64,000 nt of DNA, taken from Sediminicoccus rosea (GTDB lineage Bacteria; Pseudomonadota; Alphaproteobacteria; Acetobacterales; Acetobacteraceae). The stretch covers positions 4,117,001 through 4,181,000 of the forward strand of contig NZ_CP137852.1 of the NCBI RefSeq assembly GCF_033547095.1. Direction: 5' to 3'. Position numbers and translations under genes: made by a program. Positions 6,566 to 45,177 of this stretch are shown here, piece by piece. A model generated the notes under the pieces. The model was not told the origin of the DNA. It ran no database searches and saw nothing but the letters and a program-made list of their open reading frames with translations. Each line of letters begins with the position of its first letter. The first letter of the stretch is position 1.

Positions 6566-7686
6566 TCCTCGATCACGGCGCGGTAGACGCCGGCCAGCGC
6601 GCGCAGCTCGGCCACCGGCGCGCATTCGTCGCGCTGGTGCAGCGTGGCGCCCACGGCGCCCAACTCCGCCACCGGGCAGTAATGGGTGATGAAGCGCGCA
6701 TCGGAGGTGCCGCCGCCGGTGTCGAGCTTCGGGGTCACGCCCGTGCTGCGCTCGACGGCGCGGCGCAGCGCCTCGACGAAGGGGCCGGGCTCGGTGAGGA
6801 AGCTCTCGCCCGAGACCTGCACGCGCATCTCGTGGTCCGGCGCATGCTCGGCCAGAACGGCCTCGAGATGCGCCGTCAGCGCGGCCGAATTGTGCTTGTC
6901 GTTGAAGCGGATGTTGAGGAAGGCGCGCGCCTCGGCCGGGATCACGTTGGTGGCGCTGTTGTCCACCTGGATGCCCGTCACCTGCAGCGTCGAGGCCTCG
7001 AACCACTCGCTGCCCTGGTCGAGCGGCGTGCTGGTGAGCGCATGCAGCACGCGCGTCAGCCGATGCACCGGATTGTCGGCCAGCTGCGGATAGGCGCTGT
7101 GGCCCTGCTTCCCGCGCACCGTGATCCAGGCATTCATGCTGCCGCGCCGGCCGATCTTGATGGTGTCGCCCAGCACGGCTTTGGACGTGGGCTCGCCCAC
7201 CACGCACATGTCGGGCGTGTGGCCGTTCTGCGCCATCCATTCGAGCACGCGGCGCGTGCCATCCACCGAAGGCCCCTCCTCATCGCCCGTGATGAGCAGC
7301 GAGAGGGAGCCCGGATGGCTCGGGTTCGCGTCGAGGTAGTCCGTCAGCCCCGCGACGAAGGCGGCGATGCCACCCTTCATGTCGCAGGCGCCGCGGCCAT
7401 ACAGCATGCCGCTGCGGATCACGGCGGCGAAGGGGCTGTCGGCCCAGGCGGCCTCGTCGCCCGGCGGCACCACATCGGTGTGGCCCGCATAGCAGAGATG
7501 CGGGCCCTCCGTGCCGCGCCGCGCGAAGAGGTTGTCCACCTCGTTGAAGCGCAGCCGCGTGCAGGTGAAGCCGAGCGGCCGCAGCGCCGCCTCCATCGCG
7601 TCCAGCGCGCCGTCATCCGCCGGCGTCACGCTCCGGCAGCGGATCAGCGCCTGCGCCAGCGGAACCGGATCGGTCGTGTCAGTCAC
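6553..7686 (-). CDS. dapE: Succinyl-diaminopimelate desuccinylase
   Basis: This 377-residue M20 metallohydrolase releases succinate from N-succinyl-LL-diaminopimelate, the last step specific to the succinylase branch of lysine and meso-DAP synthesis. Zinc ligands and catalytic residues are visible: [11 protein letters not shown] (His69), [10 protein letters not shown] (bridging Asp about residue 102), TGDEEGPS (Glu pair), and the C-terminal GATLHQRDE (His350). The length is typical. It overlaps dapD by eight bases, so the two consecutive pathway steps are coupled. The product feeds peptidoglycan cross-bridges in this Gram-negative cell. Confidence 0.97.
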
Positions 7687-8503
7687 GCAGCAGGTCGTTG
7701 ATGCTGGTCTTGGCGCGGGTCTGCGCGTCCACCCGCTTCACGATCACGGCGCAGTAGAGCGACGGGCCGGGCGAGCCGTCCGGCAGCGGCTTGCCGGGCA
7801 GGCTGCCGGGCACCACCACCGAATAGGCCGGCACGCGGCCCACGAAGATCTCGCCGGTCGCACGATCAATGATCTTCGTCGTCGCGGACAGGAACACACC
7901 CATGGAGAGCACCGAGCCCTGCTCGACGATCACGCCCTCCACCACTTCGGAGCGCGCGCCAATGAAGCAGTCATCCTCGATGATGACGGGGTTGGCCTGC
8001 AGCGGCTCGAGCACGCCGCCGATGCCGACACCGCCCGAGAGATGCACGTTCTTGCCGATCTGCGCGCAGGAGCCGACGGTGGCCCAGGTGTCCACCATGG
8101 TGTTGGCGCCGACATGGGCGCCGAGATTCACGAAGCTCGGCATCAGCACGACGTTGGGTGCGATGTAGGCGGAGTGCCGGGCCACGGCGCCGGGCACCGC
8201 GCGGAAGCCCGCTTCCTTCCAGCGGTTCGGGCCCCAGCCGGCCCACTTCAGCGGCACTTTGTCGTAGGCGCCGGCGGCCGTGTCCATCGGCGCCGAATCG
8301 GTCAGCCGGAAGGAGAGCAGGACGGCCTGCTTCAGCCACTGGTTCACCTGCCAGCCGGCCGCACCCTTTTCCGCCACGCGGGCCTCGCCGCGATCGAGCA
8401 TCTCGAGCGCCGCCATCACATCATCGCGGGCCTGCCCCTGCGTCGTGGCGGAGAGCGTGTCGCGCTTCTCCCAGAGGGCTTCGATGCGGGCTTGCAGGGT
8501 CAT
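7679..8503 (-). CDS. dapD: 2,3,4,5-tetrahydropyridine-2,6-dicarboxylate N-succinyltransferase
   Basis: The 274-residue enzyme succinylates tetrahydrodipicolinate with succinyl-CoA in lysine/DAP biosynthesis. The central part is a left-handed beta helix of hexapeptide repeats (from about residue 105: [20 protein letters not shown], then [20 protein letters not shown]). The N-terminal helical domain begins [15 protein letters not shown]. The ATG at 8503 has AAGGAG about ten bases upstream. It is first in a dapD-dapE-membrane protein unit. The gene is divergent from the IalB-like gene, and the 144-base gap should hold both promoters, though I could not pick a convincing pair of boxes. Confidence 0.97.
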
Positions 8504-8647
8504 GGTGTGCGGGCTCCTTCGATGTCGCGCAGAGGCTTCGCAGCGGGGGGCCGGGGTGTCAATCTCGGGCGTCGCATTCCCCGGCCAGCTTTCGGCGCCG
8601 GGCCGGGTGCTGCTACATCAGCCCAGGCCCTTCGCAGGAATTTCAGC

Positions 8648-9307
8648 ATGGCATCGCTTCCGTGGAACCTCCTTCTCGCCCCGGCCCTGGCGCTGGGCCT
8701 GGTCGGCGCGGCCCAGGCGCAGCCGGCGCGCCCCGCGCCGCAGCAGGCCCCAGCCCCGGCGCCCGCCCCCACGCCTGCTCCGGCGCCCGCCGCCGCGCCC
8801 GCACCCAGCGCGCCGCCCGCCGCCGACCTGCCCGACCGCACCCAGGCGAATTTCGGCGACTGGCTGATGCGCTGCGAAACCCAGCGCCCGCAGGGCCAGC
8901 CCGTGCTGCGCGTCTGCGAGACGGCCATCGCCATGACCGACCAGCGCGGCCAGACCATCGCCCAGGTCGTCCTCGGCCGCATCGGCCGCACCGACGCCTA
9001 CCGCATGCTGGTGCAGCTGCCGGTCGAGCTGCGGGTGGACCAGGCCGCGCGGCTGGTGCTGGACCCGGCCGCCACGCCGGCCGAGGCGATCAACCTGCCC
9101 TTCCGCCTGTGCAGCGCCTCGCGCGGGGGCTGCTTCGGCGAGACCGAGGCCCTGGCGCCCGTGCTGATCAACCGCTTGCGGTCGCGCGGCGAGGGCCAGG
9201 GCCGGCTTGATTTCCGCGACAGCGCGGGGCGCGAGGTGCAGATCCTCTTCAGCTTTCGCGGCTTCGGCCAGGCGATGGATGCATTGGCACGCGAGACGGG
9301 CGGCTGA
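8648..9307 (+). CDS. Invasion-associated locus B (IalB)-like secreted protein
   Basis: The 219-residue protein has a signal peptide of about 25 residues ending Ala-Gln-Ala. A low-complexity Pro/Ala linker (residues 26-60, PAPAPAPTPAPAP-like) follows, then an IalB domain: NFGDWLMRCE, then VLRVCETAIAM, a central beta-rich part and LPFRLCSASRGGCFGE. Four Cys residues are placed as in IalB proteins and may form disulfides in the periplasm. The IalB family is widespread in non-pathogenic alphaproteobacteria, so the name does not imply virulence. The ATG at 8648 starts the hydrophobic signal. Confidence 0.88.
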   Translation: MASLPWNLLLAPALALGLVGAAQAQPARPAPQQAPAPAPAPTPAPAPAAAPAPSAPPAADLPDRTQANFGDWLMRCETQRPQGQPVLRVCETAIAMTDQRGQTIAQVVLGRIGRTDAYRMLVQLPVELRVDQAARLVLDPAATPAEAINLPFRLCSASRGGCFGETEALAPVLINRLRSRGEGQGRLDFRDSAGREVQILFSFRGFGQAMDALARETGG

Positions 9308-9370
9308 CGCCGCATTGACGCGAGGCACCCGCATGCCAAGCTCCCCGCCTGCTTCCGGGGACCACGACAC

Positions 9371-11185
9371 TTGGCCGATGCCGATCTGAACAGCGCCGCC
9401 TGGCGCGTCCCGCCCAGCCGCTACTGGGCCTCCCGACCGGCGGAGTTCACGCTGCCGGGCAAACCCCTCTCCCGCTACGTCACGATGCGCGACGGCTGCC
9501 GCCTCGCCGTGGATGTCTGGCTGCCCCAAGGGGCGACGGGGCCCGTGCCGGCCATCCTGATCCACACCCCCTACTACCGCCGTTTCGCCATGCGGCCCGG
9601 AGGCGAGGGCGAATCCTGCCCCAACGCCGCCAAGTTCCGCGACGCCTTCGTGCCGCGCGGCTATGCGCTGGTCGTGGTGGACATCCGCGGCACGGGGGCG
9701 AGCTTCGGCACGCGCGACAGCTTCCGCTCGCCGCGCGAGCGCGAGGATGCGCGCGCGATCAGCGACTGGATCGTGGCGCAGGACTGGTCGGATGGGCGCA
9801 TCGGCGCCACCGGCATCTCCTATCCGGGCGCCGCCTCGGACTTCCTCGCCAGCACCGGCCATCCGGCGGTGCGCGCCATCATCCCGCTCTTCGCCGTCTG
9901 GGACACCTGGGCGGATCACTACTATCCGGGCGGCGTGTTCCTGAACCGCCTGGCGCAGGTCTATGACGAGCTGATGGTCGCCATGGACCATGACCGGCGG
10001 GACCTGCTGGGCAAGGTCAGCTACTTCTCCAACCCCGACCTCGCCGGCCCCGCGCCGGTGGATGAGGACGCGGATGGCACCCTGGTGCGGGAGGCGGTGG
10101 CGCAACATCTCGGCAATTTCCGCATGCCGGATTTCATCACCGACCTCGCCTTCCGCGAGGAGGCGCTGCCCTATGACCCGAGCTTTTCCTCGGCGCAGAT
10201 CAGCCCCTATGCCGTCTCGCACGAGATCCCCAAGGATGTGGCGATCTACGCCGTCTCGGGCTGGCTGGATGGCGTGGGCTACGCCAATTCCGCGATCGCC
10301 CGGTATCTCACCATGCGCGGCAACCCGACGCATCTGCTGCTGGGCCCCTGGGACCATGGCGCGCGCTGCAATGTCTCGCCCTGGCGCGGGCGCATCGAGC
10401 CGGAATTCGCGCTGCTGGGCGAGATGCTGCGCTTCTTCGACGAATACCTGATGGGCCGTGAGACGGGCCTGCGGGACGAAGCGCCGATCCACTACTTCTC
10501 CATGCATGGCGAGACGTGGAACGCGGCCCGGCAATGGCCGCCCATCCCGGAGACGACGCGGCTGCATTTCAGCCCCGGCGCACTCGGCACCGCGCCAGGC
10601 AGCAACGCCGTGGCCGAGCACCCGAGCGACTTCGCCTGGGGCTCCGGCGGGGGCACGCGCTATGAGCGCATCGCCGCCATCAACGCGCTCGACTACCACA
10701 CGGACTGGACCGAGCGCGTGGCGGAGCTGCCCGGCTACGACACCGCGCCCTTCACGCAGGACATGGTGCTGAGCGGACATGTCATCGCCGACCTCACCAT
10801 CGCCTCCAGCGAGGCCGATGCCTCCATCCTCTGCTACATCTCGGAGATCGAGGCCGATGGCACGGCGCGCTACGTGACCGAGGGCCTGCTTCGCGCGCTG
10901 CACCGGAAGGAAGCGCCAAACCCGCCGAACTACCAATCCACCTGGCCGTTCCGCAGCTTCCACCGCGCCGATGCGAAGCCGCTGACGCCCGGCACGGCCG
11001 AGCGCATGCGGATTCCGCTGCTGCCCACCTCCTGGGTGTTCAAGGCGGGCTCGCGGCTGCGTTTCTCGCTGGCCGGGACGGATGCGGATCACATCAAGCA
11101 GATCCCGCATGGGCGGCCACCGGTGCTGAGCCTGCATCTCGGCGCCTCGGCGCTCGACCTCCCCCTCAAGCCGTATCAGGAGTGA
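9371..11185 (+). CDS. CocE/NonD-type alpha/beta hydrolase (S15 peptidase-like)
   Basis: This 604-residue serine hydrolase is of the X-Pro dipeptidyl-peptidase/cocaine esterase family, which cleaves esters, amides or acylated antibiotics. The nucleophile motif GISYPGA places Ser150. The triad is completed by an Asp near 300 (SGWLDGVGY) and His329 (LLGPWDHGAR). The C-terminal jelly-roll domain runs from about residue 390. There is no signal peptide. The start is TTG at 9371 because no in-frame ATG or GTG precedes the conserved RYVTMRDGCRLAVDVW region. The stop lies just before a Bug binding protein whose Shine-Dalgarno AGGAG overlaps it, so the two are one operon and may share a substrate. Confidence 0.92.
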   Translation: MADADLNSAAWRVPPSRYWASRPAEFTLPGKPLSRYVTMRDGCRLAVDVWLPQGATGPVPAILIHTPYYRRFAMRPGGEGESCPNAAKFRDAFVPRGYALVVVDIRGTGASFGTRDSFRSPREREDARAISDWIVAQDWSDGRIGATGISYPGAASDFLASTGHPAVRAIIPLFAVWDTWADHYYPGGVFLNRLAQVYDELMVAMDHDRRDLLGKVSYFSNPDLAGPAPVDEDADGTLVREAVAQHLGNFRMPDFITDLAFREEALPYDPSFSSAQISPYAVSHEIPKDVAIYAVSGWLDGVGYANSAIARYLTMRGNPTHLLLGPWDHGARCNVSPWRGRIEPEFALLGEMLRFFDEYLMGRETGLRDEAPIHYFSMHGETWNAARQWPPIPETTRLHFSPGALGTAPGSNAVAEHPSDFAWGSGGGTRYERIAAINALDYHTDWTERVAELPGYDTAPFTQDMVLSGHVIADLTIASSEADASILCYISEIEADGTARYVTEGLLRALHRKEAPNPPNYQSTWPFRSFHRADAKPLTPGTAERMRIPLLPTSWVFKAGSRLRFSLAGTDADHIKQIPHGRPPVLSLHLGASALDLPLKPYQE

Positions 11186-30521: not shown

Positions 30522-30570
30522 AGCCGGCCGGCATCGGCTCCGCTCCGTCGCAACCGGAAGGATGCATGTG

Positions 30571-31935
30571 ATGGCGATCTACTTCGGCACGGTGGCCGCC
30601 GACAGCTTCATGGGCGGCAGTGCGCCGGATGCCATCGACGGCGCCCCCAGCGCCGACCCGTCGCTCGACACCGGCGCCGATACGCTGCGGGGCGGCCTGG
30701 GGAACGACACCATCTACGGGCGCGCCGGGGCGGACCTGCTGAGCGGCGGCGGCGGCTGGGACGAGCTGAGTGGCGGCGATGGCAATGACGTGCTGCTCGA
30801 CAACGCGAATGGCGGCTCCCTCTCGGGCGGGGCGGGGGACGACATCATCACGGCCGTGAACATCGGCACCCTGATCTATGACTACCTCTACATCCACGGC
30901 GACGACGGGGACGACCGCATCACCGTGACGGGCAGCGGGATCGGCGGCGGCGGGCCCGCCTATCTGTGGGGCGACAACGGCAACGACACGATCAGCGGGT
31001 CCGCGGCCGGCGATGGCGTCTATGGCGGCACCGGCAACGACCGGTTGGCCGGCAATGAGGGAAATGACAGCATCTTCGGCGATGTCGGGCACGACACGCT
31101 GGACGGGGGCGCGGGCGCTGACGAGCTCTCCGGCGGCGCCGGCAACGACATCTATGTCGTGGACAACGCGGGCGACAGCGTCGTCGAGGCCGCGGGCGAG
31201 GGAACCGACACCGTCATCACCACCCTCGCCGCCTACACGCTCGGCGCGAATGTGGAACGGCTCACCGCCACCGGGGGCGGCGACTTCAGCGGCACCGGCA
31301 ATGGGCTGGCCAATATCCTCCGTGGCGGCGGCGGGGATGACAGCCTCTTCGGCGGCGATGGCGATGACAGGCTGCATGGCGGGCTCGGCGCGGACAGCCT
31401 GGTCGGCGGTCGCGACGACGACACCTACTACGTGGACCACCTGGATGACGTGGTGGTCGAGGCCGCGGGCGAAGGCGCCGACACGGTGGTGACCACCCTC
31501 GCCGCCTACACGCTCGGCGCGCATGTGGAGCGGCTCACCTTCGCCGGGAGCGGCGACTTCACCGGCACGGGCAATGGGCTGGCCAACTTCCTCACGGGCG
31601 GTGACGGGGATGACAGCCTCTTTGGCGGGGGTGGCAATGACAATCTGCGCGGCGGTGCCGGGGCGGATGAGCTGACCGGCGGCCAGGGCCATGACATCTT
31701 CCGCTTCAATCGAAGCCAGGCGCAGGGCGATCTCGTGGTGGATTTCGCGGGCAACGGCGCCGCGCAGGGGGACCGGCTGTTGTTCTCGGGCTATGGAACC
31801 GTGGCCGAGGGGGCGAGCTTCACGGCGCTGTCCGCGACCACCTGGCGGGTGACCTCGGCCGATGGGTTGACGCAGGAGGTCATCACCTTCGCCAACGCGG
31901 CCAATATCCACGCTTCCGACTGGAGTTTTGTCTGA
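30571..31935 (+). CDS. RTX-type calcium-binding repeat protein
   Basis: The 454-residue protein is built of Gly/Asp-rich nonapeptides of the GGxGxDxLx type (for example GGLGNDTIYGRAGADLLSGG, residues 45-64). These coil into Ca2+-filled beta rolls after secretion. There is no N-terminal signal peptide. The C-terminal 60 residues (DIFRFN onward, then VVDFAGN and a final hydrophobic stretch ending DWSFV) look like a type I secretion signal. No catalytic domain is visible. A 91-codon module is present twice (31132-31404 and 31405-31677). The ATG at 30571 is favoured, with GGAAGG about nine bases upstream. No type I secretion genes are in the window. Confidence 0.9.
   Translation: MAIYFGTVAADSFMGGSAPDAIDGAPSADPSLDTGADTLRGGLGNDTIYGRAGADLLSGGGGWDELSGGDGNDVLLDNANGGSLSGGAGDDIITAVNIGTLIYDYLYIHGDDGDDRITVTGSGIGGGGPAYLWGDNGNDTISGSAAGDGVYGGTGNDRLAGNEGNDSIFGDVGHDTLDGGAGADELSGGAGNDIYVVDNAGDSVVEAAGEGTDTVITTLAAYTLGANVERLTATGGGDFSGTGNGLANILRGGGGDDSLFGGDGDDRLHGGLGADSLVGGRDDDTYYVDHLDDVVVEAAGEGADTVVTTLAAYTLGAHVERLTFAGSGDFTGTGNGLANFLTGGDGDDSLFGGGGNDNLRGGAGADELTGGQGHDIFRFNRSQAQGDLVVDFAGNGAAQGDRLLFSGYGTVAEGASFTALSATTWRVTSADGLTQEVITFANAANIHASDWSFV
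31132..31677 (+). repeat. Tandem 273-bp (91-codon) duplication inside the RTX gene
   Basis: Copies at 31132-31404 and 31405-31677 encode the same order of blocks: beta-roll start, YVVD/YYVD, VVEAAGEGxDTV, TTLAAYTLGA, VERLT, GTGNGLAN, then GGDGDDSLFGG. A stretch of 30 bases around TAYTLGA codons is identical, while other parts have diverged, so the duplication is not recent. Confidence 0.85.
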
Positions 31936-35504: not shown

Positions 35505-35588
35505 GGGTTCCTCCGTTGGGCGGCAGCATCCGGTGGCCAGGGCGCGCGAGTCAAACGATGCGCGCCGCGGCCGGGGGGGGCGGAGGTA

Positions 35589-35647: not shown

Positions 35648-36058
35648 TTGGACACGCCGCCTTTTCAATTGCGCCTGCCGGCGAGCCTGGACAGCGTCAG
35701 CACCCTGCTCGACGCGCTCGAATCCTATGCGGAGACGGCCGAGCTCTCGCCCGGCATCGCCGCCCGCCTCAACCTCGTGGCGGAGGAGATCGCGGCCAAT
35801 GTCGCCATGCATGCGACGGGCGCGAGCTTTTTCGAGCTTCGCGTGACGCCCGCCGCCGGCGCACTGGCCCTCTCCATCGAGGATGACGGCCCGGAATACG
35901 ACCCGCTGGCCCGCGCCGTGCCCGACACGACGGCCGCGCTCGAGGAGCGCGAGGTGGGCGGCCTCGGCGTGCATCTGGTGCGGGAGATGACGCGGGATGC
36001 ACGCTATGAACGCGCGGGGGGGCTGAACCGCCTTTCCTGCGCCCTGCCGCTCGGCTGA
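35648..36058 (+). CDS. Anti-sigma-type serine kinase (HATPase_c, RsbW/SpoIIAB-like)
   Basis: The 136-residue single-domain GHKL ATPase has N-box NLVAEEIAANVAMHA (42-56, Glu46/47, Asn51, His55), G1 box DDGPEYD (79-85) and G2 box GGLGVHLVREM (104-114). RsbW-like proteins bind and inhibit a sigma factor or another target, and phosphorylate their STAS antagonist. The next gene is such a STAS protein. The start is TTG at 35648, with GAGGAAA seven to eight bases upstream; no ATG or GTG precedes the fold sensibly. No sigma factor gene is adjacent, so the bound target is unknown. Confidence 0.88.
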   Translation: MDTPPFQLRLPASLDSVSTLLDALESYAETAELSPGIAARLNLVAEEIAANVAMHATGASFFELRVTPAAGALALSIEDDGPEYDPLARAVPDTTAALEEREVGGLGVHLVREMTRDARYERAGGLNRLSCALPLG

Positions 36059-36167
36059 CCGGTCGCTCGGTTGAACGGACCCGCTTTCGGCTTGGCCGCA
36101 TTCTCGGCTAGCCTGTTTCCACATCGCCGCCCCAATGCGCGGCAGAACCTTCATGGAGACTGCGCTG

Positions 36168-36491
36168 ATGGAAATCACTGAAACCCAGGAAGGCGGGAAG
36201 GCCGTGGCCATCCTCGACGGCCGGCTGGACACCGCGACCGCCGGTCTGACCGAGACGCGCCTGCTCGCCATGCTGGAGAAGGGCAGCGTGATCGCCGACC
36301 TGTCCGAGGTGCGCTACGTCTCCTCCGCCGGGCTGCGCGTGCTGCTGAAGGCCGCCAAGCAGGCCAAGGCGACGGGGGCGAGCTTCGCCGTGGTGGGCCT
36401 GCAGGCCCCGGTGCGCGAGGTCTTCGAGATCAGCGGCTTCGACAAGATCATCCCCGCCTTCGCGACGCGCGCCGAAGCCGCGCAGGGCTGA
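36168..36491 (+). CDS. STAS-domain anti-sigma factor antagonist
   Basis: The 107-residue STAS protein contains VAILDGRLDTATAGLTE and the phosphoacceptor segment VRYVSSAGLRVLL (Ser52/Ser53), identical in style to SpoIIAA/RsbV. Unphosphorylated, such proteins bind the anti-sigma kinase and release its target; kinase phosphorylation of the Ser resets the switch. The ATG at 36168 has GGAGA eight bases upstream and is preferred over one at 36153. It stands between the anti-sigma-type kinase and cheR. Confidence 0.93.
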   Translation: MEITETQEGGKAVAILDGRLDTATAGLTETRLLAMLEKGSVIADLSEVRYVSSAGLRVLLKAAKQAKATGASFAVVGLQAPVREVFEISGFDKIIPAFATRAEAAQG

Positions 36492-36522
36492 CCACGGGGG
36501 GCCGACCGCGGGGGGGCTGAGC

Positions 36523-37320
36523 ATGGCGCGCGGCACCGCCGCCGCCACAACCGGAACCGGCCACGAGGCGGCCGTGCTGGCGGCGCTCGGGGCGCTGGCG
36601 GGCCTGGCCCCCTCCCCCGTGCTGACGGCGCGACTGCGGCGCGCCGCCGATCTCGTCGCCGCCTGCGACCCCCATCGCGCCCATCACGAGGACCCCGCCT
36701 GGGCCGCGCTGCTCGATGCGGTGACGGTGCAGGAGACGCGCCTCTACCGCCACCCGCCCCAGGCCGGGCTGGTGGGCGGGCTGCTGCCCGGAAGCCTGGC
36801 CCGCGCCCGGGCCGAGGGGCGGCCGCTTCGGATGCTCTCGGCCGGCTGCGCGACGGGCGAGGAGGCCTTCACCCTCGCCGCCCAGGCGAGCCACGCCATG
36901 GCCGATGCGCCCGGCACGGGGCTGGAGATCCTCGGGCTCGACCTCTGCCGGCCAGCGCTGGAAAGCGCCGCGGCCGGCGTCATCGCATCCGGCCTGGGCG
37001 ACCCGCTCGCCCTCGTGCCCGAGCCGCTGCTCCCCTGGCTCGCCGGGCCGGACGGCGCGCCCCGGCTGCATCCCGCGCTGCGCCGCAGCCTCGATTTCCG
37101 CCGCGCCAACCTGCTGGACGGCTTCGGCCACGCCCCGGCCTTCGACGTGATCTTCTGCCGCAACGTGCTGATCTACCTGACCGATCCGGCACGCGCCCAG
37201 GTCACCGGCGCGCTGGCGGCCGCGCTCCGGCCCGGCGGCGTGCTGGCGCTGGGCCCGACCGACCGCGCGCCGGCCGGCCTGCAGCCGCAGGGCGAATCGG
37301 TCTGGATCAAGCCGGCATGA
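36523..37320 (+). CDS. cheR: CheR-type chemoreceptor methyltransferase
   Basis: This 265-residue SAM-dependent enzyme methylates glutamates of methyl-accepting chemoreceptors. Key parts are TVQETRLYRHP (68-78), the counterpart of the CheR TxNET-FFR motif, then the SAM site LSAGCATGEEAFTLA (105-119) and FDVIFCRNVLIYL (about 207-219). The N-terminal helical domain is short. It overlaps the CheW gene by four bases (ATGA) and follows the STAS gene by 31 bases. The receptor at 43552-45177 is the obvious local substrate. Confidence 0.93.
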   Translation: MARGTAAATTGTGHEAAVLAALGALAGLAPSPVLTARLRRAADLVAACDPHRAHHEDPAWAALLDAVTVQETRLYRHPPQAGLVGGLLPGSLARARAEGRPLRMLSAGCATGEEAFTLAAQASHAMADAPGTGLEILGLDLCRPALESAAAGVIASGLGDPLALVPEPLLPWLAGPDGAPRLHPALRRSLDFRRANLLDGFGHAPAFDVIFCRNVLIYLTDPARAQVTGALAAALRPGGVLALGPTDRAPAGLQPQGESVWIKPA

Positions 37321-38249
37321 GCCGGCACCCCCTCCCCGGCGGCGGCTGGTTCACCCTGGCCGAGGGCGAGGCCCGGCGCCACGACGCGCCGCCGCGCCCG
37401 CCCGCCCCCGCCGCGCCGCGCCTCGCCGCCCCCGCCCCGATGGCACCGCCCCGCCGGGCGATGGGGCTGGCCGCGCTGCATCTCTCGCTGGGCGGCGTGG
37501 CGCTGGCCATCCCCTCCGCGCTGGCCGAGCACATCATCGCCATGCCGGTGCTGCGGCCCCTGCCCGGCGCCGCCCCTGGCGTGGCGGGCCTGGCCGAGAC
37601 GGATGGCGGGCCGGTGCTGGTCCTGGAGACCGGCTTCGTCGCCGGCCAACCCGCCCCGGTGGAGGAGGCACCCGGCCTGCTGCTGGTGCTGCGCGAGGGC
37701 GGGCGCCGCTTCGGCCTGCCCGCCGCGCGGATCGAGGCCGGGCCCGCCATCGCGGCCACGCGCGCCTTCCAGGCCTGGCTCGCCTCGCCCGAGGCGGCAG
37801 CGGCGCTCGCTTTCGCGCCGGCCGTGCTGGAAGCCGAGGCGGCGCGGCCCGTACCGCAGCGGCGCCTCGTCATGTTCCAGGCGGCCGGGATGGAGCTGGC
37901 GCTGCCCGCGGAATCGGTCGTCGCCGTGCTGCCGGCCACGCAGCCCCTGCCGACGCCGCGCCGGGGCCTGGCCGGCCTCGCCACGCATCGCGGCGCGGTG
38001 CTGCCGGTGCTGGATGGCGGGCTGGTGCTGGGCGGGCGCGCGGCACTCACGGGCGGGGCCGCGCCCCTCATCCGCCTCGCCCTCTGGCCGGAGGTGCTGG
38101 TCGCGGTGGAGCAGATCGGCGGCGTGCGCGCCCTGCCGGCGGCCGATGTCACGCCGCTCGCGCAGCGCGACGGCCTGGTCGCGGCCTTCGCGCGCCTCGG
38201 CGGCGCGCCCGTGCCCATCCTCGCCCCCCACCGGTTCGGCGCGCTGTGA
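37317..38249 (+). CDS. cheW: CheW-type coupling protein with two CheW-like domains
   Basis: The 310-residue protein has a Pro/Ala-rich N-terminal leader, a first degenerate CheW-like domain (about 48-145; ALHLSLGGVALAIPSAL) and a second domain (about 175-300; RLVMFQAAGMELALPAESVV, then GLATHRGAVLPVLD). CheW links CheA to receptors. A double-domain version is unusual, and one domain may replace a separate coupling protein. Translation is coupled on both sides (ATGA with cheR, GTGA with cheB). Confidence 0.85.
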   Translation: MSRHPLPGGGWFTLAEGEARRHDAPPRPPAPAAPRLAAPAPMAPPRRAMGLAALHLSLGGVALAIPSALAEHIIAMPVLRPLPGAAPGVAGLAETDGGPVLVLETGFVAGQPAPVEEAPGLLLVLREGGRRFGLPAARIEAGPAIAATRAFQAWLASPEAAAALAFAPAVLEAEAARPVPQRRLVMFQAAGMELALPAESVVAVLPATQPLPTPRRGLAGLATHRGAVLPVLDGGLVLGGRAALTGGAAPLIRLALWPEVLVAVEQIGGVRALPAADVTPLAQRDGLVAAFARLGGAPVPILAPHRFGAL

Positions 38250-39265
38250 CCGCGCCGATCCCCGTGCTGGTGGTGGATGACAGCGCCTTCATGCGGATGG
38301 CGCTGCGCCGCATCATCGAGGCGGAGGGCGACCTGCGCGTGGTCGCCGATGCCGCGGATGGCGAGGCCGCGATCGCCGCCGTGCGCCTGCATCAGCCGGC
38401 CGTGGTGGCGATGGATGTGGAGATGCCCGTGCTCGGCGGCATCGAGGCGACGCGGCGCATCATGGCGCTGCCGCACCCGCCCGCCATCATCATGGTGAGC
38501 CAGCACACGCAGGATGACAGCCCGGCCGCGATTGCAGCGCTGGCTGCGGGTGCGGCCGACTACATCAGCAAGGAGGCTGGGCTCGGCGGGCTCGACCTCG
38601 GTCATCTCGACCAGGCGCTGCGCGGGCGGATCCGGCACTGGGCCGGGCAGCGGCGCGCCCCGCCCGCGGCCAGCCCGCGCGGCGCGGCCCCGGCCGCCGC
38701 GGCGGAGGCGCCGCCGCCACTGGTGCTCATCGCCGCCTCCACCGGCGGGCCGGATGCGCTGGCGGAGCTGCTGGCGGCGAGCGGCCCGCTGCCCGTGCCG
38801 GTGCTGATCGCGCAGCACATGCCCGATGGCCTGGCGCCCGAGCTCGCGACGCTGCTGACGCGCCGCGCCGGCTGGCCCGTCATCGTCGCCACCCATGGCG
38901 CGCCGGTCACGGCGGGGCAGGCCACGCTGCTGCCGACCGATGGCGTGCTGCTGCGCGCGGCGGGTAACCTCGTGCTGCGGCTCGCCCCCAGCGGCGCGGC
39001 GGTGCACCCCTCGGCCGATCTGCTCTTCCGCTCGGCCGCCCTGCTCGGCCTGCCGGCCTGCGGCGTGGTGCTGACCGGCATGGGCCAGGATGGCGCAGCG
39101 GGGGCGGCGGCCCTGGCCGAGGAAGGTGGGCGCATCCTGGTGCAGAGCAGCGAGACTTCGGTTGTCGCCGGCATGCCCGAGGCGGCAAGCTCGCGCCTGG
39201 GCGGGGCGGAGGCCCTCTCGCCCGAGGCGCTCGGCCTCCGGCTGCGTGCGATGTGGAGGGCGTGA
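38246..39265 (+). CDS. cheB: Protein-glutamate methylesterase CheB
   Basis: The 339-residue protein has an N-terminal receiver domain (VLVVDDSAFMRMALRR; phosphoacceptor Asp57 in AMDVEMPVLGG) and a C-terminal methylesterase domain with the catalytic triad Ser165 (IAASTGGPDAL), His191 (IAQHMPDG) and Asp282 (TGMGQDGAAGA), matching the numbering of enteric CheB closely. It removes methyl groups from the receptor and is activated by CheA phosphorylation. The start is GTG at 38246, overlapping the CheW stop (GTGA). Confidence 0.95.
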   Translation: MTAPIPVLVVDDSAFMRMALRRIIEAEGDLRVVADAADGEAAIAAVRLHQPAVVAMDVEMPVLGGIEATRRIMALPHPPAIIMVSQHTQDDSPAAIAALAAGAADYISKEAGLGGLDLGHLDQALRGRIRHWAGQRRAPPAASPRGAAPAAAAEAPPPLVLIAASTGGPDALAELLAASGPLPVPVLIAQHMPDGLAPELATLLTRRAGWPVIVATHGAPVTAGQATLLPTDGVLLRAAGNLVLRLAPSGAAVHPSADLLFRSAALLGLPACGVVLTGMGQDGAAGAAALAEEGGRILVQSSETSVVAGMPEAASSRLGGAEALSPEALGLRLRAMWRA

Positions 39266-39969
39266 TGGACGAGGAATTGCTGGCCGCCTTCCGCGAGGAA
39301 TTCGCGCCGCTCTGCGCCGCGCTGGCCAGCGCCGCCGACCTCGCGGCGGCACAGCGCGTCCTGGCGCAGATGCAGGCCATGGCGGATGGCATGGAGATCG
39401 CGCCCCTCCAGGCCCGGCTGCGCGCCTTGGCCGAGACCGAGGCGCTGGCGGAGCTGCAGGCCGCCGCCCCCGCCCTGGCCGCCTTCGGCGCGGCCGAGCC
39501 GGACGCCGAGCCGCCGCCGCCCGTCGAACGTGGCCCAGTCGAACGTGGCCCAGTCCGCACCCTCATCGTGGATGATAGCGCCATGATGCGCCGCCTGCTC
39601 CGCGGCATCCTGGCCGGCGACGCGCGCTTCGCCGTGGTGGGCGAGGCGGCCGACGGCGCGGCCGGCCTCGCCGCGCAGGCGGAACTGCGGCCGGACCTCA
39701 CCCTGCTCGACCTCGAGATGCCGGTGCTGGACGGCTTGGGCTTCCTGGCCGAATGGGCGCTGTCCGGCCATGGGCAGGTGGTCGTGGTTTCCTCCGCCGC
39801 GCATCCGGGCAGCCCGGCGGCGCTGGAGGTGCTGCGGCGCGGCGCCTGGGCGGCGGTGGCCAAGCCCTCCGGCGCCCTCTCGCCCGACCTTGCCGAGCGC
39901 AGCGGCGCCGAGATCCTCGCCACGCTGCGCGAAGCCACCGGGCTTGCGACATCGGGGCTCGCGGCCTGA
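39265..39969 (+). CDS. Response regulator: CheB-like receiver without methylesterase, with Hpt-like N-terminus
   Basis: The 234-residue protein begins with about 80 residues of helix (DEELLAAFREEFAPLCAAL) that resemble a CheA P1/Hpt bundle but lack the HSLKG phospho-His motif. The linker PVERGPVERGP is a 15-bp tandem repeat. The receiver follows (LIVDDSAMMRRLLRG; Asp149 in LLDLEMPVLDG). Its end, AVAKPSGALSPDL, is the CheB-type linker start, yet the protein stops there and cheA begins two bases later. It is therefore not an ordinary CheY. ATG 39265 has GGAGG five bases upstream and overlaps the cheB stop (TGATG). Confidence 0.85.
   Translation: MDEELLAAFREEFAPLCAALASAADLAAAQRVLAQMQAMADGMEIAPLQARLRALAETEALAELQAAAPALAAFGAAEPDAEPPPPVERGPVERGPVRTLIVDDSAMMRRLLRGILAGDARFAVVGEAADGAAGLAAQAELRPDLTLLDLEMPVLDGLGFLAEWALSGHGQVVVVSSAAHPGSPAALEVLRRGAWAAVAKPSGALSPDLAERSGAEILATLREATGLATSGLAA
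39523..39552 (+). repeat. Two tandem 15-bp units encoding Val-Glu-Arg-Gly-Pro twice
   Basis: GTCGAACGTGGCCCA occurs at 39523-39537 and again at 39538-39552, perfect and in frame. It lies in the interdomain linker of the response regulator, so copy-number change by slippage would alter only the linker length. Confidence 0.85.
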
Positions 39970-39971
39970 GC

Positions 39972-42401
39972 ATGGAAGCCGACGATCCCCTCTGGCAGGA
40001 ATTCGCGGCCGAGACGGCCGAGCACCTGGATGCGCTGGAAAGCGGCCTGGCCGGGGACGGCGCGGTGGATGTGCTGTTCCGCGCCATGCACAGCCTGAAG
40101 GGCATGTCCTCCGCGATCGGCGCGCATGGCATCGGCACGCTGGCGCACAAGGCGGAGGATGTGCTGGGCCTGGCCCGCGCCGGGCGGCTCGCGCTCAACC
40201 CGCCGGTGCGGGCCGCGCTGCTGGCCGCAGTGGATGCGCTGCGCGGCCAGCGCGTGGCGCTGCTGGAACGCAGGCAGGACCAGCCGCCCCCGCCCGAATT
40301 GCTGGCGCGCCTCGGCGCGCTGGCCGAGGGCCGGCCCGAGCCGGCCGCGGGCCCGGCCGCCACCACCGCCGCCATGGGCGAGGACCCGCTGCGCGCGACC
40401 CTCGCCTCCCGCCTCGCCGATGAATGGCCGCGCCTGCTGGCCGAGCCGGGGCGCGCCACCCGCCTCGCCGCCCTGGCGCGGGAGGGGGGCCTGCCGCGCC
40501 TTGCCGGGCTGCTGGAAGCCGTGCCGGAAGCCGAGGACCGCCTGGCCGCGCTGGGCCGGTTGCGCCGAGCGCTGATGCTGCTGCAGCCCGGCGAAACGCC
40601 GCCCTGCCTGGCGGGCGATCTGCGCGCCCAGGCCATGGCGACGCGCCTGGCGCTGGCCGGCCCGCGCCAGGCGCTTGCCGAGGCCGCCGGGCGGCTCGCC
40701 GCTGCCGCCGATGCGCTGGGCGACGAACAGGCGGAGCTGCTGGCGCGACAGATCCAGGACCTGGCCGCGCGGCCGGGCGAGGCGCCGGCGCAGCGCCTCG
40801 CGGAATCCCGCGCCGCCTTCGCCACGCTGCTCGACGGCCCCCGCCTCGCACCGCTGGCCGAGACGCTGCGCCCCGCGCCGCCGCCGCTCACGCCGAGTCT
40901 CGCCGCCGCCCTGCCGCCCTCGGCCCATGCCCGCGCCGCCGCCGCCATGGCCGCCGGCCGCCGCATCTGGCGCCTGCGCCTCGGGCCGCTCCCGACCGCC
41001 GAGGCCATCGCCGAGCCCTTCCTCTCCCGCGTGGGGGAGGTGCTGGGCAGCGCCGGCCCGCCCGAGGCGCTGGACATCTTCCTGGCGAGCGACCTGCCGC
41101 CCGGGGAACTGGCCGCGCTGCGCGCCGAGGCCGACCCGGATGGCGGTGCGCTGACCGACCTCGCGGCCGCGGACGCGCCGCCGCCCGCGCCCACCATGCG
41201 CGTCCGGCAGGACCGGATTGATGCGGTGATCGCGCTGGAGGCCGAGCTGCGCGCCGCCGCCCTCTCGCTCGGCGAGGCGATCGCGGCGCCGCAGGCGCGC
41301 GCCGCCTTCGAGGAGCTGGCGGCGCTGCAATCCGCCCTGCCACCGGCCACCGCGGCCCGCCTCGCCGGCGCGCTGGAACGGCTGCGCGCCGCCACGGGGG
41401 CGGCCGAGCGGGCCCAGGGCCGGCTGTCCATCGCGCTCGGCCAGCTCGACGAGGCGGTGCTGGAACTGCGCGTGACGCCCTTCGCAACGCTGGCCATGCG
41501 CCTGCCCCGCGTGTTGCGCGCGACGGCGGAGGCGCAGAACAAGCAGGTCGCGCTCGAAGTGGTGGGCGAGGAGGTCCAGATGGACCGCTCCCTCTCCGAC
41601 CTGCTGGCCGACCCGCTGCTGCACCTGGTCCGCAACGCCGTGGACCACGGCATCGAGACGGCGGAGGAGCGCATCGCCCTTGGCAAGCCCGCCACCGCGC
41701 GGCTGCTGCTGGTGGCGGAGCGCCTGCCCGGGCGGCTCGTGCTCAGCTTCTCCGATGACGGGCGCGGCATTGACGAGAAAGCGGTGCTCTCCCGGGCGCT
41801 GGCCCGCGGACTGATCACGGCCGAGGCGGCGGCACGGATGAGCCAGGAGGAGATCCATGCCCTGCTCTTCCTGCCCGGCTTCTCGACGCGCGAGGCGATC
41901 AGCGAGACCTCGGGCCGCGGCGTCGGGCTCGACGTGGTGCAGGATGCGGCGCGGCGGGCGGGCGGCTCGGTGCGCGTGGAGAGCAGGCCGGGCCAGGGCA
42001 CGCGCTTCGTGCTCGACCTGCCGCTGACGGCGGCGATGCAGCCCGTGCTGCTGGTGGAAGCGGGCGGCCAGCCCTATGCGCTGCCGGCCGGGCGCGTGGA
42101 ATCCGTGATCCGGCCGGAGCAGCTTGCCCCCGGCCAGGCGATCACGACGCTGGAGGCGGTGCTGCACCTGCCGCCCGCCGAGAGCAGCGCCATCGTGCTC
42201 GTGCGCCGGCCGGCGGGGCTGCTGGCGCTGGCCGTGGAGCGGGTGGGGCGCCGCACCGATCTTCTGCTGAAGCCGCTGCACCCGGCGCTGGCCGGAACAC
42301 CGGGCGTGGGCGGCGTCGGCGTGCTTGGCAATGGCGAGCCGGTGCTGCTGCTGGAGCCCGACAGCCTGGACAGCGCCCAGGCGGCCGTTCAGCCGGCGTA
42401 G
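39972..42401 (+). CDS. cheA: Chemotaxis-type histidine kinase CheA
   Basis: The 809-residue kinase has P1/Hpt with phospho-His40 in FRAMHSLKGMSSAIG. A long Ala-rich region without a recognisable P2 domain follows (about 100-400). The P3 dimerisation helices carry the typical LELRVTPFATLAMRLPR (about 495-515). The P4 ATPase has N-box HLVRNAVDHGIE (about 551-562), G1 SDDGRGID (about 594-601) and G2 GRGVGLDVV (about 646-654). A P5 CheW-like domain lies at the C-terminus. It would phosphorylate CheB, the CheB-like receiver and probably the receiver-PP2C protein. Its 3' end overlaps the convergent phosphatase gene by 13 bases. Confidence 0.94.
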   Translation: MEADDPLWQEFAAETAEHLDALESGLAGDGAVDVLFRAMHSLKGMSSAIGAHGIGTLAHKAEDVLGLARAGRLALNPPVRAALLAAVDALRGQRVALLERRQDQPPPPELLARLGALAEGRPEPAAGPAATTAAMGEDPLRATLASRLADEWPRLLAEPGRATRLAALAREGGLPRLAGLLEAVPEAEDRLAALGRLRRALMLLQPGETPPCLAGDLRAQAMATRLALAGPRQALAEAAGRLAAAADALGDEQAELLARQIQDLAARPGEAPAQRLAESRAAFATLLDGPRLAPLAETLRPAPPPLTPSLAAALPPSAHARAAAAMAAGRRIWRLRLGPLPTAEAIAEPFLSRVGEVLGSAGPPEALDIFLASDLPPGELAALRAEADPDGGALTDLAAADAPPPAPTMRVRQDRIDAVIALEAELRAAALSLGEAIAAPQARAAFEELAALQSALPPATAARLAGALERLRAATGAAERAQGRLSIALGQLDEAVLELRVTPFATLAMRLPRVLRATAEAQNKQVALEVVGEEVQMDRSLSDLLADPLLHLVRNAVDHGIETAEERIALGKPATARLLLVAERLPGRLVLSFSDDGRGIDEKAVLSRALARGLITAEAAARMSQEEIHALLFLPGFSTREAISETSGRGVGLDVVQDAARRAGGSVRVESRPGQGTRFVLDLPLTAAMQPVLLVEAGGQPYALPAGRVESVIRPEQLAPGQAITTLEAVLHLPPAESSAIVLVRRPAGLLALAVERVGRRTDLLLKPLHPALAGTPGVGGVGVLGNGEPVLLLEPDSLDSAQAAVQPA

Positions 42402-43555
42402 CGCACGGCCAGCACCGTCACGTCATCGGCCGGCGGCGCGCCGCGCACGAAGCCTGCCACCTCGCGCAGCAGCGCCTTGATGGCAGCGGCGGGATCGGCC
42501 TCGCGGCCCAGTGCGGCCAGCACGCGCTCCTTGCCGAAGAGCGCCTTGTCGGGGTCATGTGCCTCGGTCACGCCGTCGCTCAGCAGCAGCATGGCCTCGC
42601 CCGGCGCCAGCGCGAAGGGCGCGCTGGCATAGGGCAGGTCCTCCATGATGCCGAGCGGCGGCTGGATCTTGAAGCCGTCCATCACCGTGACACCCGCCGC
42701 CGAGAGCCGCAGCGCGGGCTCATGCCCCGCGACGCAGATCCGCCCCTCGCCCGTCTCGGCGTCGAGGATGGCGAGTGCGGCGGTCACGAAGGTCATCTCC
42801 GGATTGTTGGCGGCGAGGTCGCCATTGGCGAGCGCCATGAGGTCCGCGGGGTCGGGGATTTCGCCGCGCGATGCGGCCATCTGCACGCCCGCGCGGATCA
42901 GGCCGAGGCTGCGCGCCATGGTCAGCCCGGCCGAGGCGCCCTTGCCCGCCACATCGGCCACCACGAACATCAGATGCCGCGGGCCGATCCATTGCATGTC
43001 GTAGAGATCGCCCCCCACCTCGCGCGCCGGCTCCATATGGGCCGCGACGGTGACGCGCCCGCGCGAGATGGCGGCGAAATCGCCGGGCACGAGGGAGAGC
43101 TGCGCGCGCCGCGCGCTTTCCAGCTCCGCCTCCAGCGCCTGCAGCCGCTCGGCCGCCAGGTCGCGCAGGCGCTTCTTCTCCAGCACGGCCTGCAGGCGGG
43201 CGCGCAGCAGCGGCGGGTCGAAGGATTTGGGCAGGTAGTCCTCGGCGCCCAGTTCGATGCAGCGGATCACGCCCGACATCTCGGTCTGCGCCGAGATGAC
43301 GATGACCGGCGGTGCATTGCCCTGCCCGTGCAGCCGCTCCAGCACGCCGATGCCGTCCAGCTCGGGCATCTCGAGGTCGAGCAGGACGACATCGAAGGGC
43401 TGGGCCGCGATGGCGGCCAGCGCCTCCACGCCATTGGTCGCCATGGCGGGCTCGGGATAGCCGAGCTCGGCAAGGCGGCGCTTGAGCAGCAGGCGGTTGA
43501 AGCTGCTGTCGTCCACAACAAGGATCTGGGGCACCACCGGGATCGCGGCGCTCAT
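42389..43555 (-). CDS. Receiver-PP2C (RsbU/SpoIIE-like) serine phosphatase
   Basis: The 388-residue protein has an N-terminal receiver ([18 protein letters not shown]; Asp60 in [13 protein letters not shown]; conserved Lys in LPKSFD) and a coiled linker (about 130-155, [20 protein letters not shown]). The C-terminal PP2C domain has the metal-binding acids in [12 protein letters not shown] and [16 protein letters not shown] and later [10 protein letters not shown]. Such proteins dephosphorylate STAS antagonists when their receiver is phosphorylated. The STAS gene of this locus is the natural target and CheA the natural donor. It is ATGA-coupled to the methyl-accepting protein gene upstream. 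Confidence 0.93.
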
Positions 43556-45177
43556 TCGGGGCGCACCGCCATGCTTTCCACCGCGCGCCGCGATTCCGCC
43601 GCGAGGCGGGAGAGATCGATCATGGTCACGGTGATTTCCTCGGCGGCCGTGGCGTTGGACTGGCCGATGCGGGTGAGGGTCGCGACGCGCTCATCGAGCG
43701 AGGCGACCGTGGTCTGCTGCTCCTCCATCGCGACGGCAATGGCGGCGGCGAGGCGGGCGCTCTCGCCGGTCAGTTGCTCGAAGCCGTCCATCGCCACGCC
43801 CACGGCGGCGGCGGTGCCCGCCCCCTCGCGCGTGCGACGGCCGGCGGCAAGCACGACATCGGCGATCTCCTGCGCCAGCGCCTCGGTGTTGGCGGCCAGC
43901 GCCCGCACCTCCTCGGCGACGACGGCGAGGCCGCGCCCGTGCTCGCCCGCGCGCGCCGCTTCGATGGCCGCGTTGATGGCGAGGATGTTGGTCTGCGTCG
44001 CGATCTTCGCGATGGTGCCGGCGATGCGCGTGACGCGCTCCGTGTCGTCGCCCACCGCATCCACCGTCTCGATGAGCTGGCGCACCTTCTCCAGGCTTTC
44101 GCCCAGCAGGCTCTGCGCGCGGCTCGCCGTGTCGCGCGCCTGCTGGGTGCTGCGGCCCACATCGGCCACCGCATCGGCGGTGTGGGACAGTGCATCCGAG
44201 ACCTGGCGCAGCTCGGCCAGCTGGGTCATCGCACCCTCGCTCACCTGGCCGATCGCCTGGCTCGCCTGGTTGGTGACGACGGCGGTGCGGCGCGCGCCTT
44301 CCAGCGCCTGCTCCATCAGCCGGTTGGAGTTGGCGAGGTTCGTCTTGAACACCTCAACGGCGCGCGCCATCTCGCCCACCTGGTCGGCGCGGCCGGCGCC
44401 CGGGATCTCGACCTCGGCATCACCCCGCGCAAGCCGCTGCATCGAGACGGCGAGGCGCGAGAGCGGGCGGGCCGTGAGCAACACCAGCACGAACCAGACG
44501 AAGCCGAGGCCGAGCAGGCCGATCCCTGCCGCAATATAGGTGTATTTACGCCCTTCCTCCTGCAGCGCCCGGGCGGTGGCGAGGTTCGCATCCGCATCCG
44601 CCTTGGTGATGGCGCGCGCGCGGCTGGCGAGGTTGTTGAAGGCCACCACCATGTCCAGCCACTCCTCCTGGAGGGGCGCGTACTGGTCCCGCGCGCGGCG
44701 GGCGAAGGCGTCGCGCACGCGCTCGCCAAGGTCGGGCAGGCGGGCGGCCATGTCCTGCGCGGCGGCGGCCACCACGGCGTCCACCCGCGCGCCCACCAGG
44801 CCATAGAGCTGGTTGAAGCTCTCGCTGATGCCGGCGGCGTTGCGGACCATGCGCGGCGCGGTCACGGTGGGCGGCAGCACACCGGCGAGCACGGCGGCGA
44901 AGGCCTGGGCGAAATCGGCCACGTCGTTCGAGAAATCGTCCACCGCCTCGATCGCGGCGCGGTCGCGCACGCCCATCTGCTCGATGATCGCGCCCTGACG
45001 CGTCAGCATGAAGAGCGAGTTGGCGGCAAGGAAGGCCAGCACCGAGAACATGAGCGCCAGGATCATCGCGGCGCGCGTGCCGATCCGGCCGAGCAGCCTG
45101 ACGCGCCCCTGCGCGCGCGGCGCGGGCGGATCGCTCACGGGTTGGGTCATGCCGGGGGCCTGGGTGTCGGGAGCCAT
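43552..45177 (-). CDS. Methyl-accepting chemotaxis protein
   Basis: The 541-residue receptor has TM1 at about residues 36-58 and TM2 at about 213-235, enclosing a roughly 150-residue periplasmic four-helix-type sensor with no named domain. A HAMP domain (about 237-290; [20 protein letters not shown]) and a cytoplasmic signalling hairpin follow, with the tip [20 protein letters not shown] and [17 protein letters not shown]. It ends VESMAVRPE, without a CheR-docking pentapeptide. It would control CheA via the CheW protein. The start at 45177 has no clear Shine-Dalgarno; ATG 45150 is an alternative. Confidence 0.93.

Follow-up and report, generated by a model that had tools for sequence, protein, structure and literature searches.

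The che1 chemosensory locus of Shewanella oneidensis carries CrsR and CrsA, which make up a partner switch for RpoS; Che1 was described as probably involved in RpoS control (PMC9855816), and its part in this control by partner switching is stated elsewhere without reserve (PMC7666153). Ancestral (stage 1/2) F7 chemosensory clusters of gamma-proteobacteria include genes for an anti-sigma factor antagonist and a serine phosphatase, the function of which is given as unclear (PMC7184735). Related switches are the HptB-HsbR-HsbA system of Pseudomonas aeruginosa (PMC6482189) and the RsbK-RsbM-RsbY system of Bacillus cereus, in which RsbM adds tuning by a methyltransferase (PMC4574943). The phosphatase RsbU is controlled by a helical linker, and the N-terminal domains of such proteins, receivers included, have been proposed to be exchangeable (PMC12143880). 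Here, we analyze a nine-gene locus, at 35.5-45.2 kb of a 64,000-nt window (the whole stretch of DNA studied, G000:C1:4117001-4181000), from the 5.14 Mb genome (two contigs) of Sediminicoccus rosea. The locus encodes a chemoreceptor and CheA, CheW, CheR, and CheB proteins, together with a receiver-PP2C phosphatase, a STAS-domain protein, and an RsbW-like kinase. Judging from these genes and their relatives, it represents a real and conserved chemosensory system, apparently of a non-motor kind, the output of which is most likely a partner switch.

Joint presence of the phosphatase and CheA in the family

In a sample of 150 genomes of the family, PP2C matches of at least 420 bits and CheA matches of at least 430 bits were found in the same 10 genomes, each of the 150 encoding both proteins or neither (Fisher p 8.6e-16, assuming independent genomes, which they are not). 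Two genera, g4 (G003/G102) and g17 (G107/G016), each include one sampled genome with both proteins and one with neither. Three genomes (G110, G006, and G148) encode a weaker PP2C (228-281 bits) and no CheA of the threshold level. In a larger sample of 397 genomes, 47 encode a PP2C reaching the 420-bit threshold; a further six matches of 228-299 bits fell short of it and were left uncounted. In G011 and G141, the module consisting of the genes for the kinase, STAS protein, CheR, CheW, CheB, RECn (our label for a receiver protein described below), and CheA lies on a different contig from the PP2C-receptor module, and therefore linkage does not account for the two proteins occurring together; the modules are likewise split in G072, but there the contigs are short.

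A search for the same gene set in other Acetobacteraceae, suggested in a first-pass annotation of the window, showed that the set is conserved and that its composition varies. We counted 19 operons: the one in the window, those of the other nine genomes with both proteins in the 150-genome sample, and L107, L109, L117, L119, L120, L122, L124, L125, and L154. The count excludes L108, L115, and L126, which duplicate the genomes of L056, L058, and L064, and L116, L121, L123, and L128, which are cut within the operon; G072 was counted over two contigs. A gene is called missing here if no match in the fetched stretch reached the profile thresholds. CheA, CheW, and RECn are present in all 19 operons and the RsbW-like kinase in 18 (missing from G005). 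CheB is found in 17 of the 19 (missing from G104 and L125), CheR in 16 (missing from G107, G104, and L125), and STAS also in 16, the exceptions being three Falsiroseomonas operons (L117, L119, and L124) that keep the RsbW-like kinase. Thus, the linkage of the kinase-STAS pair to the che genes, on which the first-pass annotation had staked its proposal, holds in most relatives and is broken in these three operons and in G005; the STAS gene can leave the locus. The same annotation assigned an adapting role to CheR and CheB; an obligatory role is not supported, one or both being absent from some operons (CheR from 3/19 and CheB from 2/19): methylation of the receptor by linked enzymes is not essential to the system. 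In Paracraurococcus (L128), the kinase and STAS genes adjoin the receptor-PP2C pair.

Phylogeny and receiver residues of the phosphatase

Relatives of the window phosphatase were taken as the best 80 named loci among the matches listed, of which 79 were included in the tree along with the window (L156 was left out by a length and score filter). The Acetobacteraceae/Roseomonadaceae clade comprises 24 rows, one of which is the window, and in every one of them the receptor gene adjoins the PP2C gene, two rows being cut by a contig end. No open reading frame (ORF) with histidine kinase motifs was found within about 10 kb (less at contig ends) in the 23 named loci of this clade or in the window. 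The set one step larger contains 36 rows (support 91, not starred); of the 12 rows that it adds, nine are linked to histidine kinases by motif and three have no detected input. Given that the nearest relatives outside the clade mostly lie beside histidine kinases, these data suggest that input from a kinase gave way to a chemosensory one, a change that the phylogenetic pattern fits. Five of the 35 histidine kinase-linked loci (L133, L141, L147, L151, and L152) were checked with Pfam, and all five encode HisKA and HATPase_c domains; in two of the five, no receiver is present.

A second CheA-linked group was observed in metagenome-assembled genomes (MAGs) of Verrucomicrobiota and proteobacteria (L165, L168, and L178, with parts in L171, L174, and L183). 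In these loci, the che genes lie upstream of the receiver-PP2C gene in the order CheA-(CheW)-MCP-CheR-CheB-REC-(REC-PP2C), and in L168, STAS and HATPase genes also lie beside the receiver-PP2C gene. The likeness to the window consists in the che genes and the receiver-PP2C, along with STAS and HATPase in L168; the gene order differs, a short single receiver takes the place of RECn, and both PP2C and CheA have separate origins. A single clade uniting both CheA-linked PP2C groups was rejected by the approximately unbiased (AU) test (p 2.4e-56), for which the second group was partly named after the tree had been seen, the contig-cut rows L169 and L181 having been moved from "no input" to the second clade by their position in the tree. 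The CheAs of the two groups form separate clades in the CheA tree as well. To our knowledge, these second-group loci have not been described, although no search by name was made.

The receivers of the two CheA-linked clades have in common three residues that are rare in the other rows: S17, a serine following the acidic pair; L22, in alpha-1; and E62, two positions after the phosphorylated aspartate. This signature is fixed in 24/24 and 8/8 rows of the respective clades. S17 and E62 occur together in none of the 35 histidine kinase-linked rows, which commonly have N/D/M at the three sites, and in none of the 12 unassigned rows. In the 267 columns of the linker and PP2C domain, the two clades share no such position. 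Among control pairs of clades with at least four rows each, 145 of 147 share no position and two share one. The other receivers of these loci resemble those of the phosphatases: RECn has S and E at the signature sites in 16/16 sequences, and regular expressions detect DDS in 21 and DxEMP in 22 of 23 CheBs. The shared residues suggest tuning of the receiver to CheA; they are consistent with CheA as the phosphate donor without identifying it.

The Verrucomicrobia MAG locus L186 (7101-11116) has another arrangement, in which che genes are followed by a gene for a receiver-hybrid kinase-Hpt protein and then by a receiver-PP2C gene. The ORF at 7101-9980 encodes, according to Pfam, the receiver/hybrid kinase/Hpt protein without a PP2C domain, and its receiver contains the S/L/E residues. 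Here, a kinase is possibly set between CheA and the phosphatase, forming a chain. The PP2C row of L186, initially labeled CheA-linked because of the che genes in the locus, was dropped before the residue comparison, the AU test, and the count of control pairs. Changes between histidine kinase and CheA linkage on the PP2C tree number three if L186 is treated as CheA-linked and two without it.

We put forward, tentatively and at somewhat less than even likelihood, a more general scenario in which receiver-PP2C switches were captured by chemosensory arrays several times (in Acetobacteraceae, in the Verrucomicrobiota/proteobacterial lineage, and in the Shewanella type), the two lineages compared here adapted the receiver to CheA in place of a histidine kinase by changes at a few sites (DDS, position 22 in alpha-1, and the glutamate two residues after the phosphorylated aspartate), and the target in Acetobacteraceae is not sigma-B-like. 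If this scenario is true, swapping of the input of a PP2C output module is a repeatable process that can be followed at the level of residues.

Components of the locus and candidate targets

All nine genes of the locus have Pfam matches above the curated cut-offs (Table 1), in agreement with the inventory of the first-pass annotation.

Table 1. The nine genes of the Sediminicoccus rosea locus, with positions in the window
Product	Position	Strand	Profile matches
RsbW-like HATPase_c_2 serine kinase/anti-sigma-type switch protein	35648..36058	+	PF13581, 63.7 bits
STAS-domain protein of the anti-sigma-antagonist type, VSSAGLR serine motif	36135..36491	+	PF01740 (66.6 bits), TIGR00377 above cut-off
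CheR receptor methyltransferase	36523..37320	+	PF01739, 101.8 bits
CheW, two CheW domains (first weak)	37317..38249	+	PF01584 in two stretches, 64.2 bits
CheB, receiver and methylesterase	38246..39265	+	PF00072, 82.4 bits; PF01339, 145.4 bits
RECn, Hpt-like four-helix module without histidine and CheB-type receiver, no effector domain	39253..39969	+	PF00072 only, 62.8 bits
CheA, Hpt/P1, HATPase_c, and CheW-like P5	39972..42401	+	PF01627, PF02518, PF01584
Receiver-helical linker-SpoIIE/PP2C phosphatase	42389..43555	-	PF07228, 145.4 bits; PF00072, 94.8 bits
Transmembrane chemoreceptor, HAMP and MCP signaling domain	43552..45177	-	PF00672, PF00015

The seven plus-strand genes are packed tightly, neighbors either overlapping by 4-13 bases or lying 2-76 bases apart, and the convergent CheA and PP2C genes overlap tail to tail by 13 bases. 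The set is flanked by genes for an acyl-CoA dehydrogenase and an Asp/Glu racemase. The closest named record to the PP2C among the matches listed is from an Acetobacteraceae MAG (95%, L107). The absence of CheY, CheZ, CheD, sigma factor, and flagellar genes from the window, already noted in the first-pass annotation, holds for what was searched: no CheZ, CheD, lone CheY, or flagellar family matched any of the 29 window proteins scanned with Pfam (27 of which are among 61 gene calls), neither cheY nor cheD was found with Pfam among the nine proteins of the locus, and none of the genome matches to Sigma70_r2 (10) or FliM (one) lies inside the window. Elsewhere in the window (30562-31932, plus strand), a gene encodes a 457-aa protein with RTX calcium-binding repeats as its sole Pfam match.

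The start of the kinase gene is uncertain, being either the TTG at 35648 or a codon further upstream (the ORF opens at 35516). The nearest solved structure to the profile of the kinase family is RsbW (6m36, E 0.0016). Residues E47, N51, D79-D80-G81, and G104-G105-L106-G107 are invariant in nine sequences and Pfam detects no HisKA domain, as in HATPases of the RsbW type. The best solved relatives of the STAS protein are 4hyl (E 2e-12), TM1442, and SpoIIAA; it is a single domain with a serine at the position expected, by analogy, to be phosphorylated, and the VSS motif containing this serine is present in all 10 STAS rows compared. A second STAS and RsbW-like HATPase pair is encoded in the same genome at about 319 kb (G000:C1:317679-321047; L014:1136-1881). 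The two best HATPase_c_2 matches of the genome are short RsbW-like proteins, the one in the window and the one at 319 kb, the latter with a STAS protein of its own. No PP2C gene was found in the 3.4-kb stretch around the 319-kb pair, and the phosphatase of the window is the only SpoIIE-family match in the genome (search at E 0.001); hence, this phosphatase might serve both STAS-kinase pairs.

The aspartates D183, D201, D327, D377, and D378 of the PP2C and D60 of its receiver are Asp in all 24 + 8 CheA/MCP-linked and all 35 histidine kinase-linked rows, so that the metal-binding aspartates of a partner-switch phosphatase are retained in every row compared. The Hpt histidine motif was found in 15/15 CheAs checked, and the P1 histidine of the window CheA is present; for the N-box and G1 box of CheA, the regular expressions used were so strict that a non-match does not indicate absence. 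In a tree that contained no stage 1/2 F7 CheA, the window CheA belongs to a deep clade of its own, apart from Escherichia coli CheA. The receptor contains two hydrophobic segments, a predicted helical periplasmic bundle, a HAMP domain, and an MCP signaling domain; its model (mean predicted local distance difference test [pLDDT] score 71) yielded weak structural matches only, and Pfam detects no PAS domain, HAMP and MCPsignal being the only matches.

RECn had been labeled a CheB-like receiver in the first-pass annotation. The receiver is of this type, its best fold match being the receiver of Thermotoga maritima CheB, but the methylesterase domain is absent, and an N-terminal module is present instead. 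The AlphaFold model (mean pLDDT 87) consists of four helices (residues 7-80) followed by the receiver. The N-terminal module shows a weak match to the P1 profile of the CheAs from the same operons (P 0.0004 in a single comparison, probability 36%), and in none of the aligned sequences does a histidine occupy the His column. Thus, the module appears to be an Hpt-derived domain that would be unable to carry phosphate and that perhaps functions in docking. The RECn homologue of Falsiroseomonas algicola (L117:14555-15868) contains three tandem Hpt-like modules, all without histidine.

Proteins of the RsbW type classically hold sigma factors of the SigB/SigF type, and a distant sigma factor was one of the targets named in the first-pass annotation. 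The genome encodes 10 proteins matching Sigma70_r2, namely, RpoD and RpoH (above the NCBIfam cut-offs), four above the cut-off of the sigma70 extracytoplasmic function (ECF) superfamily (L189-L192), one just below the latter (L195), and three unmatched at 1e-8 (L193, L194, and L196). None of these matches reaches the cut-off for a SigB/SigF/SigG- or RpoS-type sigma factor, sigma-54 not having been searched for, and therefore the target of the switch is probably not a factor of the sigma-B/sigma-F type. The three short, weakly matching proteins L193, L195, and L196 look alike by eye and possibly represent an unusual sigma-like family. In the flanks of 30 stretches (29 loci and the window), no conserved target gene was found, only frame-shadow ORFs of the nine genes and lineage synteny, such as the acyl-CoA dehydrogenase gene beside loci of the Roseococcus type. 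FliM is encoded at 2.60 Mb, outside the locus, and the genome contains two further CheA loci with receiver ORFs nearby.

Proposed wiring, alternatives, and comparison with described systems

From these features, we infer a chain of phosphotransfers, with a direction of control and a set of binding partners, as follows. The dedicated receptor would signal via CheW to CheA, and phosphorylated CheA would act as phosphate donor for the receiver domain of PP2C. Phosphorylation of the receiver would activate the phosphatase through the helical linker, and the active PP2C would dephosphorylate the STAS protein. Unphosphorylated STAS protein would then bind the RsbW-like kinase and free the partner held by the latter, or else would itself act on a target. 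In those operons that encode them, CheR and CheB would tune the receptor. RECn probably serves either as another substrate of CheA or as a docking protein, and would compete for phosphate or buffer it.

Altogether, we consider it fairly probable, on the strength of the sequence comparisons, that the locus encodes a non-motor chemosensory system with a partner switch as its output. The path from CheA to PP2C, which was also the core of the first-pass annotation, gains support from the joint presence of the two proteins, the single SpoIIE match in the genome, and the lack of histidine kinase motifs near the loci of the clade as opposed to most of the relatives; a classical sigma target (SigB/SigF/SigG- or RpoS-type) and an obligatory adaptation by CheR and CheB are not supported. 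Several observations weigh against our interpretation. The 10 genomes in which PP2C and CheA co-occur are relatives of each other, the kinase assignment of 30 of the 35 histidine kinase-linked rows comes from motif regular expressions, and the STAS gene is gone from three Falsiroseomonas operons and the kinase gene from G005. The receiver signature was noticed after the fact, on comparing the groups, and when all 354 control pairs (down to three rows) are considered, two pairs share three positions. The signature is not exclusive either: in an outside set of 11 plasmid loci with a receiver-PP2C gene and no detected CheA (one of two records and 10 of 94, the ORF of L207 being wrongly picked), three carry S17 and E62, and one of these carries all three residues. 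Conversely, the PP2C of L186, with che genes in the locus, lacks the signature and has the histidine kinase-type residues A/D/M. Furthermore, there are two other receivers in the window and two other CheA loci in the genome, so that cross-talk is possible.

A competing explanation, which we regard as unlikely, is that the main output of the array is RECn, CheB, or an unlinked CheY-like regulator, and that the PP2C/STAS/kinase switch is controlled by some other, unlinked kinase, the linkage resulting from co-transfer of two stress modules. RECn and CheB indeed share the CheA operon and the same receiver residues, receiver ORFs lie near both of the other CheA loci, and L186 offers an example of a hybrid kinase placed between che genes and PP2C. 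However, separate control would have to be reconciled with the all-or-none distribution of PP2C and CheA across the 150 genomes (at the thresholds used), which includes genomes where the two are unlinked, and with the lack of kinase motifs in the vicinity of the clade loci. Still less probable, we believe, is a system that serves motility after all, the switch acting to adjust the activity of the motor or the expression of flagellar genes. The presence of FliM implies that the organism may build a flagellum, but the locus includes no lone CheY, FliM, or sigma factor gene, and with two other CheA loci elsewhere in the genome, motility would have other controllers available.

The target is a different matter, as a non-sigma target is compatible with a chemosensory partner switch and has, in our estimate, close to an even chance. 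Under this possibility, the switch would act on polysaccharide synthesis, say, or on a diguanylate cyclase, in the way SiaC acts on SiaD in Pseudomonas aeruginosa, a published case (PMC8457831), and the RsbW-like protein would be only the kinase of the STAS protein. The lack of a SigBFG- or RpoS-type match in the genome is in line with such a target, as are the six fetched plasmid loci with REC-PP2C, STAS, and ATP-binding protein genes next to DUF3131 and glycosyltransferase-type genes. On the other side, the flanks of the relatives contain no conserved target gene beyond local synteny, ECF factors are also candidate targets, and sigma-54 lay outside the sigma factor search. In the six plasmid loci (L204, L205, L206, L208, L210, and L211), CheA was not detected.

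The proposed chemosensory partner switch would be an alphaproteobacterial array that ends in serine phosphorylation rather than at a motor. Since the genome encodes only one SpoIIE phosphatase, each step could be assayed with little redundancy. Most of the closest relatives outside the clade are linked to histidine kinases, and a similar change is seen in a separate clade; these proteins therefore provide a natural experiment on the exchange of one kinase partner of a receiver for another.

In the open-access literature searched, we found no paper on this locus and none linking Roseomonas to CheA and chemosensory systems; nor did we find there the alphaproteobacterial version, the separate origin of the latter, the apparent substitution of CheA for a histidine kinase, or the histidine-less Hpt-like/receiver protein. 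The principle itself is not new, given that partner switches that are chemosensory or tuned by methylation are already known from Shewanella che1-CrsR/CrsA (PMC9855816, PMC7666153) and B. cereus RsbK-RsbM-RsbY (PMC4574943). Like the locus described here, Shewanella Che1, a system of the F7 class, combines CheA, CheW, CheR, CheB, and receptors with a partner-switch pair in one locus. Unlike in Che1, the phosphatase and the kinase of the S. rosea locus are separate proteins, neither CheY nor CheD is among the nine gene products, no RpoS-type sigma factor reaches the cut-off, and the receptor is a transmembrane protein without a PAS match. In the tree, the CheA of the window forms a clade apart from that of E. 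coli. The ancestral F7 clusters share with the window cheA, cheW, cheR, cheB, and receptor genes as well as STAS and serine phosphatase genes, but they also contain cheY, cheD, and Aer2-like and McpA-like receptors, none of which was recognized among the nine genes; instead of the PAS-HAMP repeats without a periplasmic domain that typify Aer2-like receptors, the receptor of the window has HAMP and MCPsignal domains and two hydrophobic segments. The hallmarks of flagellar chemotaxis, CheY directed to FliM and linked motility genes, were not seen in the locus. In HptB-HsbR-HsbA and RsbK-RsbM-RsbY, as proposed here, a STAS/anti-sigma switch is the substrate of a receiver-PP2C protein that is itself under the control of a kinase system, but the input consists of hybrid kinases with HptB, or of RsbK, and not of a CheA array. 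Set against these systems, the S. rosea locus looks like an independently evolved alphaproteobacterial variant of a published principle.

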